From contig NZ_AQOV01000001.1 in NCBI RefSeq assembly GCF_000365425.1, forward strand, positions 2,728,001-2,792,000: 64,000 nt of DNA. Direction: 5' to 3'. The DNA comes from Methylomonas sp. MK1. GTDB lineage: Bacteria > Pseudomonadota > Gammaproteobacteria > Methylococcales > Methylomonadaceae. This document shows, in pieces, positions 35,507-56,363 of the stretch; the stretch's first letter is position 1, and every line of letters begins with the position of its first letter. The notes below the pieces were generated by a model, which worked only from the letters and a program-made list of their open reading frames with translations, made no database searches and was not told where the DNA came from. Both the position numbers and the translations under genes were made by a program.

Positions 35507-37726
35507 TCACATCGCATACTTCTTCATCAGACCCGGCACATCGAGTATCAGCGCTATCTTGCCGTCACCGGTAATGGTGGCTCCCGCCAGCCCTTCCAAT
35601 CCATGTAACTTGGCACCCAGCGCTTTAATCACCACCTCTTCCTGACCGATCAATTGATCCACCACAAAACCAACATGCCTGCCGCCGGCGTTCACCACCA
35701 CCACATGATTGGTCGGCTGCGTTTCGCCTGTGAAATAAGAACCTCTGACCAGCCATTCGCTTAAATAAAACAGCGGTAAGGCCTTGTTTCTGACCATTAC
35801 CACCAATTGACCATCTACCTTATTGGTTTTGCTCAAATCCAGATCGAGTATTTCCAGAACGCTGGCCAAGGGCAACGCGAAAGCCTGTCCGCGCAGCTTC
35901 ACCATAAGGGTCGGCATGATAGCCAAAGTCAGAGGCACCTTGATCAGAATAGTGCTGCCCTTGCCTTCCACCGAATCGATTTCCACCACGCCGTTCATTT
36001 GCGCGATACGGGTCTTCACCACGTCCATGCCGACACCGCGACCGGATACGTCGGAAATTTCGGTTTTGGTGGAAAAGCCGGGTAGAAAAATCAGGTTGTA
36101 ACATTCCTTATCGTCAAGACGGGCGGCGCTTTCTTCATCCATCAAGCCTTTTTCCACTACTTTGGCGCGCAGTATGTCGGGGTTCATACCTTTGCCGTCG
36201 TCTTTGATGGACAACTGGATATGATCGCCTTCCTGAGAAGCTTTCAATATCACCACGCCTTCCCGAGGTTTGCCGTTGGCTTCGCGCTCATCCGGCGATT
36301 CGATACCGTGATCTACCGCGTTTCTGACCAAATGCACCAAAGGATCCGCCAGGGCCTCGACCAGATTTTTGTCGAGATCGGTTTCTTCACCCACCAACTC
36401 CAGCCTGATTTCTTTTTTCAGACTTCTAGCCAAATCGCGTACCACACGCGGAAAACGCCCGAAGACTTTTTTGATAGGCTGCATCCGCGTTTTCATCACC
36501 GCCAGTTGTAAATCGGCGGTCACCACATCCAGATTGGATATAGCCTTGGACAACTGTTCGCCAGCTTCGGCATTGGCTTTAAGGGTTTGGAAGCGATTGC
36601 GTACCAGCACCAACTCCCCGACCATATTCATAATATCGTCCAAAATCTGGGTATCTACCCTGACCGTGGTATCGGCTTGCGGTGTTGCGGCTTTACTTTT
36701 GTCGGAAACGGAATCTACTACCGGCGCTACTTTGCCGAGGTTATTTTCGGGCTCCACATCGGCGGGCGGTTTCTCGACCGGCTCGGGTTTAGCAGCCACC
36801 ACCGGTTTCTCGACAGGCGCCGCCACATTTTTAATTGGTGCGTCTTTTTCACCCGCAGCTTGCTCGTCAATCTTGCCCAAATTGGCAGCATCGAACTTAC
36901 CTTTACCGTGTAAAGCATCGAGTACTTTATCGAACTCCTCGTCGGTAATATCCCCCGAATCGTTGGCTTGAACAGGCGCCTCGGCTTTTACCGAAAACTT
37001 GCCTTTGCCATGCAACTCGTCGAGTAAATTTTCAAACTCGTCTTCACTAATTTCGTCATCCGCCGCCGGGGCTGCCGATTGCGGCGCTATGTGTACAGTA
37101 GGAGAACCACCTTTACCATGCAAAGCATCCAGCAAATCTTCGAATTCCTGTTCGGTAATTTCGTCGGCATCTTCCGAGGCGGATTCGCTAGCCAATAACT
37201 CCTCGGGATCGAGCATCGCATCGTAGTCTTGAGCTGCGGATTCTTGAGGGGATAGCTGCTGCCGAGTGGATTCGTAAGTTTCGTTAATTACAGCGGTTTC
37301 AACCGCAATCTCAGCAGGCGCGGATGCAGCAACTTCGGCCGGCCCCGCGTAAGATTTCAAGCGTTTCAATAGACCTTGATCCGCCGATTTTGGCGTATTG
37401 CCCGAACGGACTTGCCCAAACATCTCGTTGACGATGTCAACTACTTGCAAAATCACATCCATCAAATCCGGGGTGACTTGGCGATCACCCTGCCTGAGCA
37501 CGTTAAAAACGTCTTCGGCGTTATGACAAACATCGACCAGAGCGCTGATAGCCAGAAAACCGGCACCGCCCTTTATGGTGTGGAACCCGCGAAATATCGA
37601 GTTGAGGAGATCAAGATCGCCGGGTGATTGCTCCAGTTCTACCAGTTGTTCACCCAGTGAATCGAGAATCTCCCCGGCCTCGACCAGAAAGTCCTGCAAT
37701 ATTTCGTCGTCCAGATCGATCGCCAT
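35507..37726 (-). CDS. cheA: Chemotaxis sensor histidine kinase CheA
   Basis: A 739-residue kinase. The HPt domain at residues 1-105 has the phosphorylated His49 (FRGFHTIKGGAGF). In place of a standard P2 domain there is a long acidic region with three copies of a motif of the form D-I-T/S-x-x-E-F-x-x-L/V-L-D-x-L-H-G-K-G (residues 188-206, 224-242, 258-276). Dimerisation (about 355-420), ATPase (LVHLVRNAVDHGIE, DVSGRGVGMDVVK) and a CheW-like regulatory domain follow. It is the centre of the che block. Confidence 0.96.
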   Translation of the reverse strand: MAIDLDDEILQDFLVEAGEILDSLGEQLVELEQSPGDLDLLNSIFRGFHTIKGGAGFLAISALVDVCHNAEDVFNVLRQGDRQVTPDLMDVILQVVDIVNEMFGQVRSGNTPKSADQGLLKRLKSYAGPAEVAASAPAEIAVETAVINETYESTRQQLSPQESAAQDYDAMLDPEELLASESASEDADEITEQEFEDLLDALHGKGGSPTVHIAPQSAAPAADDEISEDEFENLLDELHGKGKFSVKAEAPVQANDSGDITDEEFDKVLDALHGKGKFDAANLGKIDEQAAGEKDAPIKNVAAPVEKPVVAAKPEPVEKPPADVEPENNLGKVAPVVDSVSDKSKAATPQADTTVRVDTQILDDIMNMVGELVLVRNRFQTLKANAEAGEQLSKAISNLDVVTADLQLAVMKTRMQPIKKVFGRFPRVVRDLARSLKKEIRLELVGEETDLDKNLVEALADPLVHLVRNAVDHGIESPDEREANGKPREGVVILKASQEGDHIQLSIKDDGKGMNPDILRAKVVEKGLMDEESAARLDDKECYNLIFLPGFSTKTEISDVSGRGVGMDVVKTRIAQMNGVVEIDSVEGKGSTILIKVPLTLAIMPTLMVKLRGQAFALPLASVLEILDLDLSKTNKVDGQLVVMVRNKALPLFYLSEWLVRGSYFTGETQPTNHVVVVNAGGRHVGFVVDQLIGQEEVVIKALGAKLHGLEGLAGATITGDGKIALILDVPGLMKKYAM

Positions 37727-49754: not shown

Positions 49755-50834
49755 TTACAGCGAATTAACGGCGTTTAATTCTTGGAAGGCTTGCTCTAAA
49801 CGAGTCACCATGCCAACTTGGCCGGCACGTTGCCAAACCCGTGGGTCATAGTATTTTTTGTTCGGCTTATCGGCACCTTCCGGGTTACCGATTTGGCCTT
49901 GCAAATAAGCTTCGTTTTTCTTGTAAAACTCCATCACGCCAGCCCAAGATGCCCATTGTGTGTCGGTATCGATGTTCATTTTAACGACGCCGTAGCTGAT
50001 AGATTCTTTAATCTCTTCTGGAGAGGAGCCTGATCCGCCATGGAACACGAAGTTTAATGAATTTTGCGGCAAGCCGAATTTTTCTGAAACGTATTTTTGC
50101 GAGTTAGCCAAAATTGTCGGCGTCAATTTAACGTTGCCTGGAGAGTAAACGCCATGAACATTACCGAACGACGCAGCAATAGTAAACCTGTGGCTGATTT
50201 TGCTCAGTTGCTCGTAAGCGTAAGCAACGTCTTCCGGCTGGGTATACAAAGCAGAATGATCCATACCGCTGTTGTCGACACCGTCTTCCTCACCACCGGT
50301 ACAACCCAGTTCGATTTCCAGAGTCATACCCATTTTGGACATGCGCTCCAGATATTTACCGCAGATTTCAATGTTTTCTTGCAAGCTTTCCTCGGAAAGA
50401 TCCAGCATGTGCGAGCTGAACAATGGCTTGCCGGTTGCAGCGAAGTGCTTTTCGCCCGCATCCAACATGCCATCAACCCACGGCAGCAATTTCTTCGCAG
50501 CATGGTCGGTATGTAAAATAACCGGTACGCCATAATGCTCAGCCAAAGCATGCACGTGATGAGCGCCAGAGATCGCACCAACAATTGAACAACCTTGCCC
50601 TTCCAACTTCAAGCCTTTACCGGCAACAAATGCCGCACCACCATTGGAGAACTGAATCACAACCGGCGACCTTACTTTCGCCGCCGCTTCCAACACCGAA
50701 TTGATAGTATCGGTGCTGATCACGTTCACAGCAGGTAAAGCAAATTTATTTTCTTTGCAAATTGCAAAGATTTTTTGTACATCTTCACCGGTTACGACAC
50801 CGGGCTTAACAACATCTAATATTTTTTGAGACAT
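49755..50834 (-). CDS. fba: Class II fructose-bisphosphate aldolase
   Basis: A 359-residue zinc-dependent aldolase close to E. coli FbaA. Zinc/substrate motifs: GVPVILHTDHAAKKLLPWVD, LEIELGCTGGEEDGVDNSG, FGNVHGVYSPGNVKL and FVFHGGSGSSPEEIKESISY. It cleaves fructose 1,6-bisphosphate in the cleavage phase of the RuMP cycle and in glycolysis. It is the last gene of the RuMP locus, 103 bases after tal with two hairpins in the gap. Confidence 0.97.
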   Translation of the reverse strand: MSQKILDVVKPGVVTGEDVQKIFAICKENKFALPAVNVISTDTINSVLEAAAKVRSPVVIQFSNGGAAFVAGKGLKLEGQGCSIVGAISGAHHVHALAEHYGVPVILHTDHAAKKLLPWVDGMLDAGEKHFAATGKPLFSSHMLDLSEESLQENIEICGKYLERMSKMGMTLEIELGCTGGEEDGVDNSGMDHSALYTQPEDVAYAYEQLSKISHRFTIAASFGNVHGVYSPGNVKLTPTILANSQKYVSEKFGLPQNSLNFVFHGGSGSSPEEIKESISYGVVKMNIDTDTQWASWAGVMEFYKKNEAYLQGQIGNPEGADKPNKKYYDPRVWQRAGQVGMVTRLEQAFQELNAVNSL

Positions 50835-50937: not shown

Positions 50938-51924
50938 TTAAGCTTCCAGACTAGCCAAACGCTCTGACAACAATTTTTCCAAAGCTTCCAAAGCTTTGGC
51001 AAAGCCGTCGATACCTTCAGCCAATTTTTCTTTGGCCATACGGTTTTCTTCGTGCATCCGCTCAAAAGTTGCTTTATCGACAGTGATTTTTTCGATTGCG
51101 GCGTTTGCTGCATTAGCAGGATCCAGTTTACGCGGCAGGTCACCTTCAACGGATTGCAGTTCAGCCAACAGCGACGGAGCAATAGTCAACAAATCACTAC
51201 CGGCCAGTTCGGTAATTTCACCGATGTTTCTGAAACTTGCACCCATTACTTCGGTTTTGTAACCGAACTTTTTGTAGTAGTTGTAGATTTCAGTTACTGA
51301 CAATACCCCTGGATCTTCAGTCGGGGCATAAGAGTCGCGGCCGGTGTCTTTTTTGTACCAATCCAGAATGCGACCGACGAATGGCGAAATCAGTGTGATG
51401 CCGTTTTCTGCGCAAGCAATCGCTTGGTGCAAGCCAAACAACAGCGTCAGGTTGGTGTGAATGCCTTCTTTTTCCAATACAGCAGCAGCTTGGATACCTT
51501 CCCATGTTGCAGCAATTTTGATCAGCACGCGCTCTTTAGAAATACCGGCGGCTTCGTATTGTTTAATCAGGTCCCGGCCTTTGGCAATGGTACCTTCAGT
51601 ATCGAAAGATAAGCGCGCATCTACTTCGGTTGATACACGACCCTCGATGATTTCCAGTATTTTTAGGCCAAAAGATACCGCCAAACGGTCAAATGCCAAA
51701 GAAACGACATCCGCGGCAGCGGCGGCAGCACCCAAGGTTGCTCTTGCACCTTTCAACGTATCATCAACGATACCTTGATACTGCGGCATTTGCGCGGCAG
51801 CGGTAATCAATGATGGATTAGTGGTCGCATCGCGTGGTTTAAATGTTTCAATCGCTTGAATGTCACCGGTGTCGGCAACAACAACAGTCATTTCGCGGAG
51901 TTGTTCGAGTAAATTTTTTGCCAT
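50938..51924 (-). CDS. tal: Transaldolase (TalB type)
   Basis: A 328-residue class I transaldolase. The Schiff-base Lys is in [20 protein letters not shown], and the family parts [20 protein letters not shown] and [18 protein letters not shown] are present. It exchanges a dihydroxyacetone unit between sedoheptulose 7-P and glyceraldehyde 3-P in the rearrangement phase of the RuMP cycle. It lies between the repeat protein gene and fba. Confidence 0.97.
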
Positions 51925-52208: not shown

Positions 52209-52898
52209 TTAAGCTTTATCACGTAAATACTTTTCCACGCCAGTCGCTTTCGCAGCGGCAGCTTCCCGATCTCTTACGATTTGCTTTGCCATGTATTTGG
52301 CAACGCCTGTAGCAGGATTGGAATCTTGTTTTTCCAAGTATTTGGCAACACCGGTTTTATTCGCACCCATCTTTTCCAAATACTTTTCCACGCCGGTTGC
52401 ACCAGATGCAACTTGGTAATCATTAGCTGAAGAACCTTTGGCACTTTTAGGCGATTTTTTGTTGTAAATAAAAAATCCTGCTACCGCCAGCAAAACCAAG
52501 CCAATGTAGGAAAAATCTGAGGACGCAGCTTTTTCCGTTTGTATAACATCTACCGCTGCTTCCGCAGAAGTTGTGGAGGCAGATGAGCTTGACGATTTAG
52601 CCGCACTGGGCGCTGCTGCGCTGTGCTTATACTCAGCATCGCTGTATAACACTTTAGGTTGAAAATTCGTCGCAGGGAAAGCTGGATCCGCTTCAACTTC
52701 TTTTGCAGCAGGTTTCGCCGCTGGTGCTGGAGCAGCAACTGGCGCCGATTTGCTGTCGTTATATTCAGGATTGGTATAGAGCACCTTTGGCTGATAATCA
52801 GCCGCCGGATAATCCGATCCCGCCATAGCTAAGGAACTGGTCAGCATTAGAGCTGCCATCACGCCTTTCGTTAATTCATTTCTTTTCACGTCTATCAC
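52209..52898 (-). CDS. Membrane-anchored repeat protein in the RuMP locus (unrecognised)
   Basis: A 229-residue protein I do not recognise. A signal peptide ends at about residue 26 (SSLAMA then GSDYP). Two 26-28-residue repeats follow (28-53 and 70-97), each containing QPKVLY and a later EY. An Ala/Ser/Pro linker leads to one TM at about 129-146 (FSYIGLVLLAVAGFFIY) followed by Lys-rich residues, which places the N-terminal part outside and the C-terminus in the cytoplasm. The tail has four TGVxKY(L/M) repeats starting at 168, 182, 197 and 219. It lies between tkt and tal on the same strand, so a role tied to the RuMP enzymes is possible but unproven. Confidence 0.8.
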   Translation of the reverse strand: MIDVKRNELTKGVMAALMLTSSLAMAGSDYPAADYQPKVLYTNPEYNDSKSAPVAAPAPAAKPAAKEVEADPAFPATNFQPKVLYSDAEYKHSAAAPSAAKSSSSSASTTSAEAAVDVIQTEKAASSDFSYIGLVLLAVAGFFIYNKKSPKSAKGSSANDYQVASGATGVEKYLEKMGANKTGVAKYLEKQDSNPATGVAKYMAKQIVRDREAAAAKATGVEKYLRDKA

Positions 52899-52960: not shown

Positions 52961-54976
52961 TTAAAGAACGGCTTCCACATTAGCGACGACATTGTCCACG
53001 GTAAAGCCGAACTCTTTGAAGAGTTGACCTGCCGGGGCCGATTCGCCGAAACGGTCCAATCCTACGACTCTACCCGCGCTGCCGGCATATTTCCACCAGC
53101 TGTCGGTTACTCCCGCTTCTACTACCACGCGCTTGGTAACGCTTGGCGGCAATACGCTGTCTTTGTACGCTTGGTCTTGCGCTTCAAAGACATTGGTCGA
53201 TGGCAAGGACACCACGCGGATGTTTTTGCCTTTGGCTTCCAGCGCTTCAGCGGCTTTAACCGCCAATTCCACTTCAGAGCCGGTGGCAATGATGATGGCA
53301 TCCGGGGTACCGGCACTGTCTTTCAGGATGTAGCCACCTTTACTGATGCCGTCAATCTGGGCTTGGCTGCGCGCCATGTGCGCCAGGTTTTGCCGGGAAA
53401 AGATCAGGGTGCTCGGTCCATCTTGACGTTCGATCGCGGCTTTCCAGCACACGGCCGACTCGACGGCGTCGCAAGGGCGCCAGACCTGCATGTTCGGAAT
53501 CATGCGCAGGGTGGCGGTTTGTTCGACGGGTTGGTGAGTCGGACCGTCTTCGCCCAGACCGATAGAGTCGTGGGTGTAAACGAAGATGGTCGGAATTTTC
53601 ATCAACGCGGCCATGCGCAGGGCGTTACGGGCGTATTCACTGAACATCAGGAAGGTAGCGCCGTAGGGTTTGAAGCCACCGTGCAGGGTGATGCCGTTCA
53701 TGATGGCGGACATACCGAATTCACGCACACCGTAGTAGACGTAGTTGCCGTCGAAGCCCGGTTGGTTGACGTCTTTGCAGCCGGACCACAGGGTCAGGTT
53801 GGAGCCGGCCAAGTCGGCAGAGCCGCCCAGCAGTTCGGGCAACAAGGGGCCAAAGCCGTTCAGGGTGTTTTGCGACGCTTTACGGCTGGCGATGGTTTCG
53901 CCTTTTTCGTTGACGGCCGCAATGAAGGCGTTGGATTTTGCCGCCCAATCGGCCGGCAGTTCATTTTTGATGACCCGACGTTCGAATTCGGCTGCCAATT
54001 CCGGATGTGCGGCTTGATACGCAGCAAATTTGGCGTTCCAGGCGCTTTCCAGTTGGGCACCTTTGGCGTTGGCATCCCAACCGGCTTTGATGTCGGCAGG
54101 AATGTCGAACGGCGCATGCGACCAACCCAGATTTTCACGGGTCAGGGCGATTTCCGCTTCACCTAAGGCCGCACCGTGGCATTCTTCTTTGCCTTGTTTG
54201 TTCGGCGAACCGAAACCGATGGTGGTTTGGCAGCAGATGATGCTCGGTTTGTCAGTGACTTTTTTCGCAGCTTCGATAGCAGCTTTCACTGCATCGGCGT
54301 CGTGACCGTCGACTTTGGGGATGACGTGCCAGCCGTAGGCTTCGAAACGTTTGGGCGTGTCGTCCAGGAACCAGCCGGCGACGTTGCCATGACCGCGGAC
54401 TTCGCCGTCGATGGAGATGTTGTTGTCGTCGTAGAAGGCGATCAGTTTGCCCAGTTTCATGGAGCCGGCCAGGGAGCAGGCTTCGTGGGAGATACCTTCC
54501 ATCAAGCAGCCGTCACCCAGGAAGACGTAGGTGTGGTGGTCGACGATGTCGTGGCCCGGACGGTTGAATTGACCGGCCAGGGTGCGTTCTGCCAGGGCAA
54601 AACCGACCGCGTTGGTGATACCTTGTCCCAAGGGACCCGTGGTGGTTTCGACGCCGTCGGTGTAACCGTATTCAGGGTGTCCTGGGGTTTGCGAGTGCAG
54701 TTGGCGGAACTGTTTCAGTTCTTCAATCGGCAGATTGTAGCCGGCCAAGTGCAGCAAGGAATAAATCAGCATGGAGCCATGACCGTTGGACAGGATGAAG
54801 CGGTCGCGGTTGGGCCATTTGGGGTTGCTGGGGTTGTGTTGCAGAAAATCGTTCCACAATACTTCTGCGATGTCGGCCATCCCCATCGGTGCACCGGGGT
54901 GCCCGGAGTTGGCTTTCTGTACGGCGTCCATGCTAAGTGCGCGGATGGCGTTCGCTAAGTCTCGGCGCGAAGGCAT
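52961..54976 (-). CDS. tkt: Transketolase
   Basis: A 671-residue thiamine-diphosphate transketolase. The ThDP motif [21 protein letters not shown]-terminal [30 protein letters not shown] middle region ([16 protein letters not shown]) and [19 protein letters not shown] are all present. It moves two-carbon units to regenerate ribulose 5-P. AAAAGGAGACC precedes the ATG and a candidate promoter is 24 bases upstream. It is of normal length. Confidence 0.97.
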
Positions 54977-55178: not shown

Positions 55179-55712
55179 TTATTCCAAATTGGCGTGTCTT
55201 GATCTCATCTCTTCTTCTGCAATGCCTTTGTCATGGATTACATGCGAAATTGTCGCTTCCAGGAAAAACAAGGTAGACAATTCAAACACAGTACCCATAG
55301 GCATGCCTTTGACTTTACCGTATTGTTCGGATCTGCCGATTTGCAAAGTGACATCAGCCATGTCGCCAATCGTTGAATCGTCCTTAGCCGAAATCAACAC
55401 AATCTTTGCGCCGACTTCTTTGGCTTTTTTGGTAAAGGCAATCAACTGCTCGGTTTCACCAGAGCCGGAAATAATGATCAACAAATCGCCAGCTTTGATG
55501 CTTGGCGTAACAATTTCACCGACAACGCTAACGTCATAGCCGCCATGCATCAAACGCATAGCAAAGAAATTGCCGACTAGCTTTGAACGGCCAGCGCCCG
55601 ATATAAAAATGCGCTTAGCCTGATCCAGCATGTCCACCAAGGTTTTGTCATGCGAGTCGGGTGTCGCTTCCAGAATCCCTGAGATTTTGTCAATAATTAA
55701 CTGCTGATGCAT
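55179..55712 (-). CDS. phi: 6-phospho-3-hexuloisomerase
   Basis: A 177-residue SIS-domain isomerase that converts hexulose 6-phosphate to fructose 6-phosphate, the second step of formaldehyde fixation. SIS motifs: IFISGAGRSKLVGNFFAMRL, LIIISGSGETEQLIAFTKKA, and the catalytic C-terminal FELSTLFFLEATISHVI. It starts 3 bases after hps. The pair is the hallmark of RuMP methylotrophy (hxlAB in Bacillus). Confidence 0.97.
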   Translation of the reverse strand: MHQQLIIDKISGILEATPDSHDKTLVDMLDQAKRIFISGAGRSKLVGNFFAMRLMHGGYDVSVVGEIVTPSIKAGDLLIIISGSGETEQLIAFTKKAKEVGAKIVLISAKDDSTIGDMADVTLQIGRSEQYGKVKGMPMGTVFELSTLFFLEATISHVIHDKGIAEEEMRSRHANLE

Positions 55713-55715
55713 GAC

Positions 55716-56363
55716 TTATACCGCCGCTGCGTCAACCAATTCACGGATTTCACGAGCAGCTTCAGCAGGTGAAGGAGCACCGTAAATAGCAGCACCAACA
55801 ACGATGATGTTGGCGCCAGCTTCAACGACTTGTTGTACAGTCGCTTGTTTGATACCGCCAGCGACAGAGATACGCACATTCAGGCCCAAACGAGCGATGT
55901 CGTTCAGATCGGTAAATGGCGTGTGACCGGCTGCTTGTGCGTCGAGACCTGTGTGAATACCAACGATTTGCGCGCCCAATTTAACAGACTCTCTCGCGCA
56001 TTCGGCTTTGTCGGCCACGTTGATCAAGTCGATTTGAGTTTCAGCGCCATGTTTTTTCGCAGCCTTGATAACGCCTGCGATAGTAGCCAAACCGGATACG
56101 CCCAACACGGTGCAGATATCCGCGCCAGCAGCATAAAAAGCACCGGCTTCGTATTCGCCTGCGTCCATGGTTTTCAGGTCAACCAACAACAATTTATCTG
56201 GGTAGCGTTGTCTCAGTTCTTTAACCAAGTTGATACCGTTGTATTTAATGCAAGGAGTGCCGATTTCAAAAATGTCGACATAGGGTGCTACTTGATCTGC
56301 CAATGCAACTGTTTGGTTGAAATCCAGTGAATCCAACGCCATTTGAATTAATGGTCTTGCCAT
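55716..56363 (-). CDS. hps: 3-hexulose-6-phosphate synthase
   Basis: A 215-residue TIM barrel of the OMP decarboxylase superfamily that condenses formaldehyde with ribulose 5-phosphate. The start at 56363 (GGAG upstream) gives the usual MARPLIQMALDSLDF; 19 extra upstream codons are unlikely. Active-site DLKTMDAGEYEA (Asp-x-Lys-x-x-Asp), IGTPCIKYNG and the phosphate-binding VAGGIKQATV are intact. It heads the RuMP locus. Confidence 0.97.
   Translation of the reverse strand: MARPLIQMALDSLDFNQTVALADQVAPYVDIFEIGTPCIKYNGINLVKELRQRYPDKLLLVDLKTMDAGEYEAGAFYAAGADICTVLGVSGLATIAGVIKAAKKHGAETQIDLINVADKAECARESVKLGAQIVGIHTGLDAQAAGHTPFTDLNDIARLGLNVRISVAGGIKQATVQQVVEAGANIIVVGAAIYGAPSPAEAAREIRELVDAAAV

Follow-up and report, generated by a model that had tools for sequence, protein, structure and literature searches.

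CsoS2 of the alpha-carboxysome and EPYC1 of the algal pyrenoid are Rubisco linkers, and they are the described systems closest to the family reported here, which we term QT-TGV. Like the members of this family, each is a disordered chain that carries several copies of a short motif and is tied to the enzymes of a single carbon-fixation step. QT-TGV differs from both in its motif, in its association with formaldehyde fixation, and in having one form that is membrane-anchored and carries a second set of motifs outside; the comparison is one of descriptions, QT-TGV being known here from sequences alone. Artificial enzyme scaffolds share the purpose of bringing pathway enzymes together (PMC10771841, PMC7241084), although they are engineered, whereas a QT-TGV scaffold would be natural and membrane-linked. 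Among publications on RuMP metabolons, scaffolds and membrane-associated hexulose enzymes, no title or opening part of an abstract names the family, and the strings TGVEKYL, TGVAKYL, TGVERYI, TGVAKYM and QPKVLY appear nowhere in the literature text searched, from which subscription papers were mostly absent.

QT is our working name for a membrane-anchored repeat protein whose gene lies between tkt and tal on the minus strand of the window, that is, of the whole 64,000-nucleotide stretch of Methylomonas DNA that was analysed. This placement, proposed in the first-pass annotation, is borne out by the open reading frames and by curated models of the neighbouring genes. All of these are on the minus strand: hps (55716..56363, with a mechanical ORF extending to 56420; TIGR03128, 253 bits against a cut-off of 200), phi, encoding 6-phospho-3-hexuloisomerase (55179..55712; TIGR03127, 205 bits against 160), tkt, for transketolase (52961..54976; TIGR00232, 1005 bits against 682), tal, for transaldolase (50938..51924; TIGR00874, 471 bits against 396), and fba, for a class II fructose-bisphosphate aldolase (49755..50834; TIGR01520, 595 bits against 348). 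Strong terminator-like hairpins lie on the minus strand 3' of phi (55168-55135) and of fba (49742-49715), both from a consensus scan that found 16 hairpins where shuffled sequence gave 9.9; given the one after phi, tkt-QT may be transcribed separately from hps-phi. In a Methylococcus study, fitness on methane is reported to fall when guides target the two RuMP operons, MCA3040-45 and MCA3046-50, in an account that does not separate the uncharacterised genes (PMC13108547). A study of Methylomonas DH-1 reports Tal and Hps among five dense gel spots, all of them highly expressed proteins (PMC8645107).

The QT gene probably begins with the GTG at 52889 and spans 52209..52889 on the minus strand, encoding 226 residues. 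The open reading frame noted earlier is real, and its extent to 52898, giving 229 residues, is less likely to be correct, because the upstream GTG sits inside AGGTGA and close relatives begin with MKRNELTKG. The AGGTGA is an apparent Shine-Dalgarno sequence just upstream of the GTG at 52889 and would make a good ribosome-binding site. The architecture that had been read from the translation (signal peptide, two QPKVLY repeats, one membrane helix and four TGVxKY(L/M) repeats) was confirmed throughout, and all of its parts map to the minus strand. The signal peptide (52818..52889), read from the sequence, ends ...SSLAMA/GSDYP and corresponds to a helix at residues 2-21 of a low-confidence AlphaFold model. 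Two outside repeats follow, both matching the QPKV pattern: YPAADYQPKVLY at 52776..52811 and FPATNFQPKVLY at 52644..52679, with mean majority fractions of 0.89 and 0.81, respectively. Their consensus is (Y/F)PAxxxQPKVLY, of the YPAAxFQPKVLY type. The single transmembrane helix (52458..52517; model helix 128-147) is succeeded by positive residues (KK), so that the topology, again read from the sequence, is positive inside. The tail then carries four TGV repeats, each assigned by pattern and by alignment: TGVEKYL at 52377..52397 (short model helix 171-178), TGVAKYL at 52335..52355 (model helix 183-192), TGVAKYM at 52290..52310 (model helix 198-216) and a C-terminal TGVEKYL at 52224..52244 (model helix 221-228).

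As judged by profile comparison, QT belongs by descent to no family tested. It has no match in Pfam and three matches in NCBIfam, all below their cut-offs. Assignment to the LPXTG-anchored proteins (TIGR01167) was rejected, since the match scores 12.5 bits against 15.9, covers only the transmembrane region and includes no LPXTG; GspL (NF041617) was rejected at 12.8 bits against a cut-off of 150. Among eight TGV proteins compared with Pfam, five (P0121, P0183, P0187, P0194 and P0216) pass the whole-protein cut-off of 23 bits for U1snRNP70_N (PF12220) with 23.8-31 bits; membership was rejected because no stretch passes alone in any of the eight, and DUF6292 (PF19809) and DPC2 (PF25195), with weak scores and no stretch passing alone, were likewise set aside. 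We read the PF12220, PF19809, PF25195 and NF041617 matches as artefacts of repeats or composition. No CsoS2 or EPYC1 family appears among the listed Pfam and NCBIfam matches of QT or the listed Pfam matches of the eight TGV proteins, and a sequence search of the PDB with QT returned only two matches, at E values of 0.4 and 0.77. It is by mode of action that QT-TGV would join CsoS2 and EPYC1 among the enzyme scaffolds built on multivalent linear motifs.

When the QT tail was shuffled 20,000 times, no shuffle held even one TGVxKY(L/M) motif, of which four are observed, and in 20,000 shuffles the QPKVLY motif, observed twice, never once appeared. By a loose pattern, exactly two QPK and four TGV motifs are present in 102 of the best 120 of 421 QT homologues, and at least three TGV motifs in all of those 120. 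Across 40 aligned homologues, the mean majority fraction is 0.96-0.99 in the four TGV motifs, 0.72-0.90 in the spacers between them and 0.41-0.58 in the three long linkers. The TGV motifs are thus the best-conserved part of QT, the opposite of the lack of repeat conservation that the first-pass annotation had named as telling against its proposal. AlphaFold models are poor, with a mean pLDDT of 53.5 for the 40 aligned QT proteins and 62.2 for 25 aligned TGV proteins of Methylophagaceae, and contain short helices at the motifs and otherwise only the N terminus and the membrane helix; with no confident fold, QT as a folded domain or enzyme was rejected. QT and the soluble TGV proteins described below therefore have what is expected of a linear-motif scaffold, conserved copies of a short motif set in variable, unfolded linkers. 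A search of the genome itself for other TGVxKYL-repeat proteins, as had been proposed, was made with the strict pattern: it recovers the paralogous RuMP locus, and it also matches three cysteine synthases, one of them confirmed by a family model, and two out-of-frame places, while a reversed control pattern gives 3 matches. The QPKV pattern finds both RuMP loci and one unrelated place, and its control finds 1.

That paralogous locus lies 60 kb away in the same genome (L027:8471-13124, contig positions ~2718470-2723124), and with a Tkt 99.7% and an Hps 97.7% identical to the window copies it is presumably a recent duplication or gene conversion. It comprises hps and tkt, a 94-residue QPKV-only protein with a signal-like start, and a 465-residue TGV protein that has 15-17 TGV-type repeats, depending on the pattern, and neither signal nor membrane helix; phi and tal are absent from the locus. 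Another genome, G217, has three tandem hps-phi-tkt units with TGV proteins alongside. At L106:1498-1830, L060:1498-1824 and L027:9948-10232 lie small proteins in which a signal-like start is joined to two or three (Y/F)PAAxFQPKV motifs; since they have no membrane helix or TGV tail, the outside motif evidently exists independently.

To gauge distribution, QT was searched against genomes of the order Methylococcales. Homologues number 421 at E ≤ 0.001, and among the 120 listed all of those with an organism name are from Methylomonas. A QT match at this threshold is present in 261 of 311 genomes of the order and Hps, at E ≤ 1e-40, in 259; counted across the two listings, 242 genomes have both, 19 QT alone, 17 Hps alone and 33 neither, the last group taking in ten listed genomes of ~2 Mb from family f2, which we take to be perhaps Cycloclasticaceae. 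Five of the 17 Hps-alone genomes (G033, G034, G242, G243 and G245) do carry a TGV protein at hps that the QT search missed or under-scored. No TGV protein was seen near hps in ten inspected genomes of the remaining twelve (G049 and G050 lie outside this count), among which the contig ends close to hps, leaving one side unseen, in G041, G048 and one of the two G051 copies.

Many Methylococcales also encode a soluble TGV protein, often directly after QT in the order hps-phi-tkt-QT-TGV-tal. Membrane and soluble forms are direct neighbours in 6 of 11 loci examined in family f1; at the remaining f1 loci, either a separate hps unit precedes the soluble form or the stretch does not contain it. Between 6 and 20 TGV repeats are found in 112 of 115 listed soluble homologues (with the query counted in and the last three rows of the listing left out), and their spacing ranges from 10 to 138 residues, which argues against a regular repeat fold. 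Several soluble forms have a very hydrophobic N terminus, such as LNGLFLPAVAGLFFFMKR in P0206, and those of Methylophagaceae an amphipathic one, such as KGFFSSICGLLKGIF in P0122, suggesting that the soluble forms may also touch the membrane. P0235 and P0237, of ~400 residues, combine SRVAKYLASQ repeats with a C-terminal Cys/His segment (CQASTAKGTQCKNK...CTQH). Neither QT nor P0235 was found in plasmid records, and the annotated loci show no RuMP enzyme fused to TGV repeats.

The genes for these proteins keep close company with hps. Among the matches listed, QT and Hps fall on one contig in 76 of 92 genomes and, in 73 of those 76, within 6 kb of each other (median 2.8 kb); the three far QT copies are at contig ends, as are many in the 16 genomes with matches on different contigs. 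At loci not chosen by Hps, tblastn located an Hps within 6 kb of 84 of 87 TGV ORFs. Methylophagaceae contribute 42 of 42 to this count and 27 Methylococcales loci 42 of 45, a few of these 45 ORFs being short pieces or split readings. Two of the three misses come from L117, where the contig breaks off within tkt. The third, G036 (L122), is a real exception, in which a QT with its tail sits beside a purD-like gene (identified by eye) and away from hps, while none of the three hps copies of that genome has a TGV protein beside it. ORF-based annotation of the same 27 loci places a RuMP gene within 6 kb of 41 of 42 TGV proteins. The gene nearest to the TGV gene is often tkt or tal, and hps is present in the most varied arrangements: it is directly beside QT in several members of a second large family, f4, and in G039 it lies near the TGV gene with no tal or tkt within 6 kb.

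The association extends beyond Methylococcales. In a sample of 369 genomes of the class, the QT search gave four matches, two in Methylococcales and two in Methylophagaceae. Six of the 369 possess Hps, each with a TGV protein at hps that was detected by the QT search in four, by a weaker match in G034 and by inspection in G312. None was detected in the other 363 genomes, a negative limited by the incomplete sensitivity of a search that missed two of six at threshold. A Methylophagaceae profile applied to 398 genomes of the phylum matched only the genome of the window, and the same kind of profile scan across 84,980 species genomes yielded 50 confirmed loci. Wherever their names are informative, these belong to Methylophaga or Methylophagaceae, with one Methylobacter exception; the other records are labelled only Piscirickettsiaceae, Gammaproteobacteria, Pseudomonadota or Proteobacteria. 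At 42 of the 50 loci, a TGV-repeat protein of 59-204 residues has hps and tal each within 6 kb, and 40 of these 42 genes lie directly between the two; at L250 the gene is between phi and tal, and at L211 the contig starts on the hps side. One further locus is the Methylobacter QT in a RuMP operon, and the other seven belong to a large ORF considered below. Within Methylophagaceae the profile matches 54 of 57 genomes, in some of which the large ORF is the sole listed match. Methylophagaceae are not known to oxidise methane; because they too have the TGV motif, its link is to RuMP assimilation and not to methane oxidation. The outside YPAAxFQPKVLY motifs were seen in Methylococcales only. The first-pass annotation would have been weakened by homologues found mostly in non-methylotrophs with no link to sugar-phosphate genes; they occur instead in Methylococcales and Methylophagaceae, with sugar-phosphate genes. 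Like the clients of a linear-motif scaffold, the RuMP enzymes are thus encoded and distributed together with the TGV proteins, the large ORF (7 of 50 loci) being the exception.

Some Methylococcales lineages appear to lack the TGV motif. In family f5, perhaps Methylothermaceae, no TGV protein was seen at eight hps loci examined; at seven of them hps-phi lies beside carbamoyl-phosphate synthase genes, mostly near dnaK (one carB-type and one dnaK gene were confirmed by family models and the others by eye), and the eighth is a short contig. Four f5 genomes examined have a QT homologue elsewhere, beside mutS (L098:1342-2097, L127:8223-8867, L128:8031-8654 and L129:8754-9272; mutS was assigned by family models, with the 344-residue MutS piece of L098 below the cut-off). 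This homologue retains the signal peptide and the membrane helix along with one or two motifs of the YPAAxFEPEVIYQD type, and its tail has no TGV motif, consisting of an acidic stretch and then a basic, NRQRANKTKR-like end. A homologue in family f6 is likewise without TGV, in a genome without an Hps match, and these proteins indicate that tail and outside part are modules with separate evolutionary courses. One f5 genome, G297, does have a TGV-bearing RuMP contig (G297:C1, L089); that contig is 99.9% identical over 3.6 kb to G019:C285 (L090), from a different family, and so may be contamination, probably through cross-contaminated assemblies. Besides f5, no TGV protein was seen near hps in members of four genera of the second family, one of which, g44, also includes a genome, G046, that QT does match. 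The TGV-negative Hps proteins are more divergent from the window Hps than are those of TGV-positive Methylococcales, and Methylophagaceae Hps stand at a similar distance. A tree of 67 Hps sequences places 14 of the 16 TGV-negative proteins on one side of a branch with support of 86/91, which is below the tool's threshold, and nests two among the TGV-positive ones; this fits a history shared with one Hps lineage, or simple phylogeny. Comparison of Hps from TGV-positive lineages, 29 sequences from Methylococcales and 76 from Methylophagaceae (three loci of the latter entered twice), with the 16 TGV-negative ones gave 7 discriminating columns, against 3 and 10 in two controls.

The large ORF of Methylophagaceae, ~1,800-2,065 residues when complete, encodes a chemosensory hybrid kinase that also carries TGV-type repeats. 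At L249:1595-7492, Pfam identifies three Hpt stretches, HATPase, CheW and response-regulator domains, a build we take to be ChpA-like, and the gene adjoins a chemoreceptor-like gene that scores below curated cut-offs; seven other copies were recognised by their length and start. In these eight distinct records (L249, L272-L276, L278 and L279; L277 is the same record as L249), each kinase has three to six T(G/S)VxxY(I/L) repeats in its N-terminal half, downstream of an Hpt domain. The kinase resembles the RuMP TGV proteins in these repeats and differs from them in being a multi-domain kinase away from the RuMP locus. CheA-like ORFs at 20 loci in 17 Methylococcales genomes have no such repeats, apart from two single look-alikes of a loose pattern. 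The window itself holds a CheA-like kinase ORF of 739 residues (35507-37726, minus strand), without TGV motifs and surrounded by genes that look flagellar by eye. Since the kinase shares the motif, the repeats are not exclusive to RuMP loci, and there are two possibilities: the motif may have a partner other than a RuMP enzyme, or the kinase may itself be recruited to the assembly of RuMP enzymes.

Taken together, these observations lead us to favour, with barely better than even confidence, the interpretation that QT and the soluble TGV proteins tether enzymes of the RuMP cycle through multivalent linear motifs, with putative binding as follows. Each motif of the T(G/S)Vx(K/R)Y(L/I/M)xxQ type would fold into a short helix and dock through it onto a RuMP enzyme, the likeliest clients being Hps and/or Tal, and a chain with several motifs would gather several enzymes. 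The membrane helix of QT, or the hydrophobic or amphipathic N terminus of the soluble forms, would hold the cluster on the cytoplasmic side of the membrane, at the point of entry of formaldehyde produced in the periplasm, and the outside YPAAxFQPKVLY motifs may bind a second, periplasmic partner. Support comes from the conserved position with RuMP genes, including the hps-tal loci of Methylophagaceae and all six hps genomes of the class sample; from the company that TGV proteins keep with duplicated hps units, in the second locus of this genome and in G217; and from motifs that are far better conserved than the long linkers, are variably spaced and belong to no predicted folded domain. The f6 homologue and the four mutS-adjacent homologues of f5, all without the TGV tail, add to it. 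Against tethering stand, most strongly, the motif in the kinase, and further the several hps lineages with no TGV protein seen beside hps, the exception of G036, and the Hps residue comparison, which gave no excess. The docking proposed in the first-pass annotation is strengthened, and its interpretation as a whole is supported in part: it keeps its association with RuMP genes and its conserved repeats, and those repeats are not exclusive to RuMP loci. A tie between tail and hps agrees with the f5 homologues, which are away from hps and tail-less, and not with G036, which keeps its tail away from hps.

A more ambitious arrangement, which we regard as rather unlikely, would make QT a relay scaffold across the envelope: the outside motifs would hold a periplasmic component of C1 oxidation, for which the methanol dehydrogenase or methane monooxygenase systems would be candidates, the inside TGV motifs and the soluble protein would hold Hps and other RuMP enzymes so that formaldehyde is caught during its passage through the membrane, and in Methylophagaceae the kinase would be brought to this assembly by its own copies of the TGV motif.

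The motifs might instead bind one another, as homotypic helices that build a membrane-attached network shaping or stacking the intracytoplasmic membranes, or a condensate, with no docking of enzymes. The co-occurrence of anchored and soluble repeat proteins in many Methylococcales, as neighbours at 6 of 11 f1 loci, the short helices in the AlphaFold models and the 6-20 repeats of a soluble chain are all compatible with self-association. We nevertheless consider it unlikely, as Methylophagaceae, which are not known to have the stacked membranes of methanotrophs, have the motif, as the 10-138-residue spacing in soluble forms is unlike a regular repeat fold, and as retention of the gene with hps and loss of the tail in the f5 homologues away from hps would go unexplained.

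The kinase raises a further alternative, in which TGV would serve to dock a chemosensory or other regulatory partner that the RuMP TGV proteins and the kinase share or compete for, so that C1 assimilation would be coupled to surface motility or to some other form of control. In its favour, the 1,800-2,065-residue kinase of Methylophagaceae has repeats of this kind beyond an Hpt domain; against it, the CheA-like ORFs at 20 loci in 17 Methylococcales genomes do not have them, and the RuMP TGV genes sit beside enzymes, not regulators, and we judge such a partner to be unlikely. It is less probable still, and on balance improbable, that QT is an envelope protein acting through its outside motifs, with the RuMP operon a convenient, highly expressed place and the tail a spacer: the outside motifs do persist in homologues lacking tail motifs, and secreted proteins with only outside motifs exist, yet no other part of QT is as well conserved as the tail motifs, which also occur in separate soluble proteins that have no outside part, at hps-tal in Methylophagaceae. 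That QT is a chance ORF or the curiosity of a single genome, as its lack of a Pfam match or of an NCBIfam match above cut-off might suggest, is refuted by 421 homologues at E ≤ 0.001 and by the 261 genomes, of 311 in the order, that have a match, and has practically no probability left.

To our knowledge, how gammaproteobacterial methanotrophs capture formaldehyde, which is made outside the cytoplasmic membrane, before it does damage is an open question. The QT-TGV family, undescribed, very widespread and with both membrane and soluble forms, is a concrete and easily tested candidate for a part in that capture. A natural RuMP scaffold, if that is what these proteins are, would be useful for synthetic methylotrophy, and because a chemosensory kinase also has the motif, C1 assimilation may be connected with surface behaviour.
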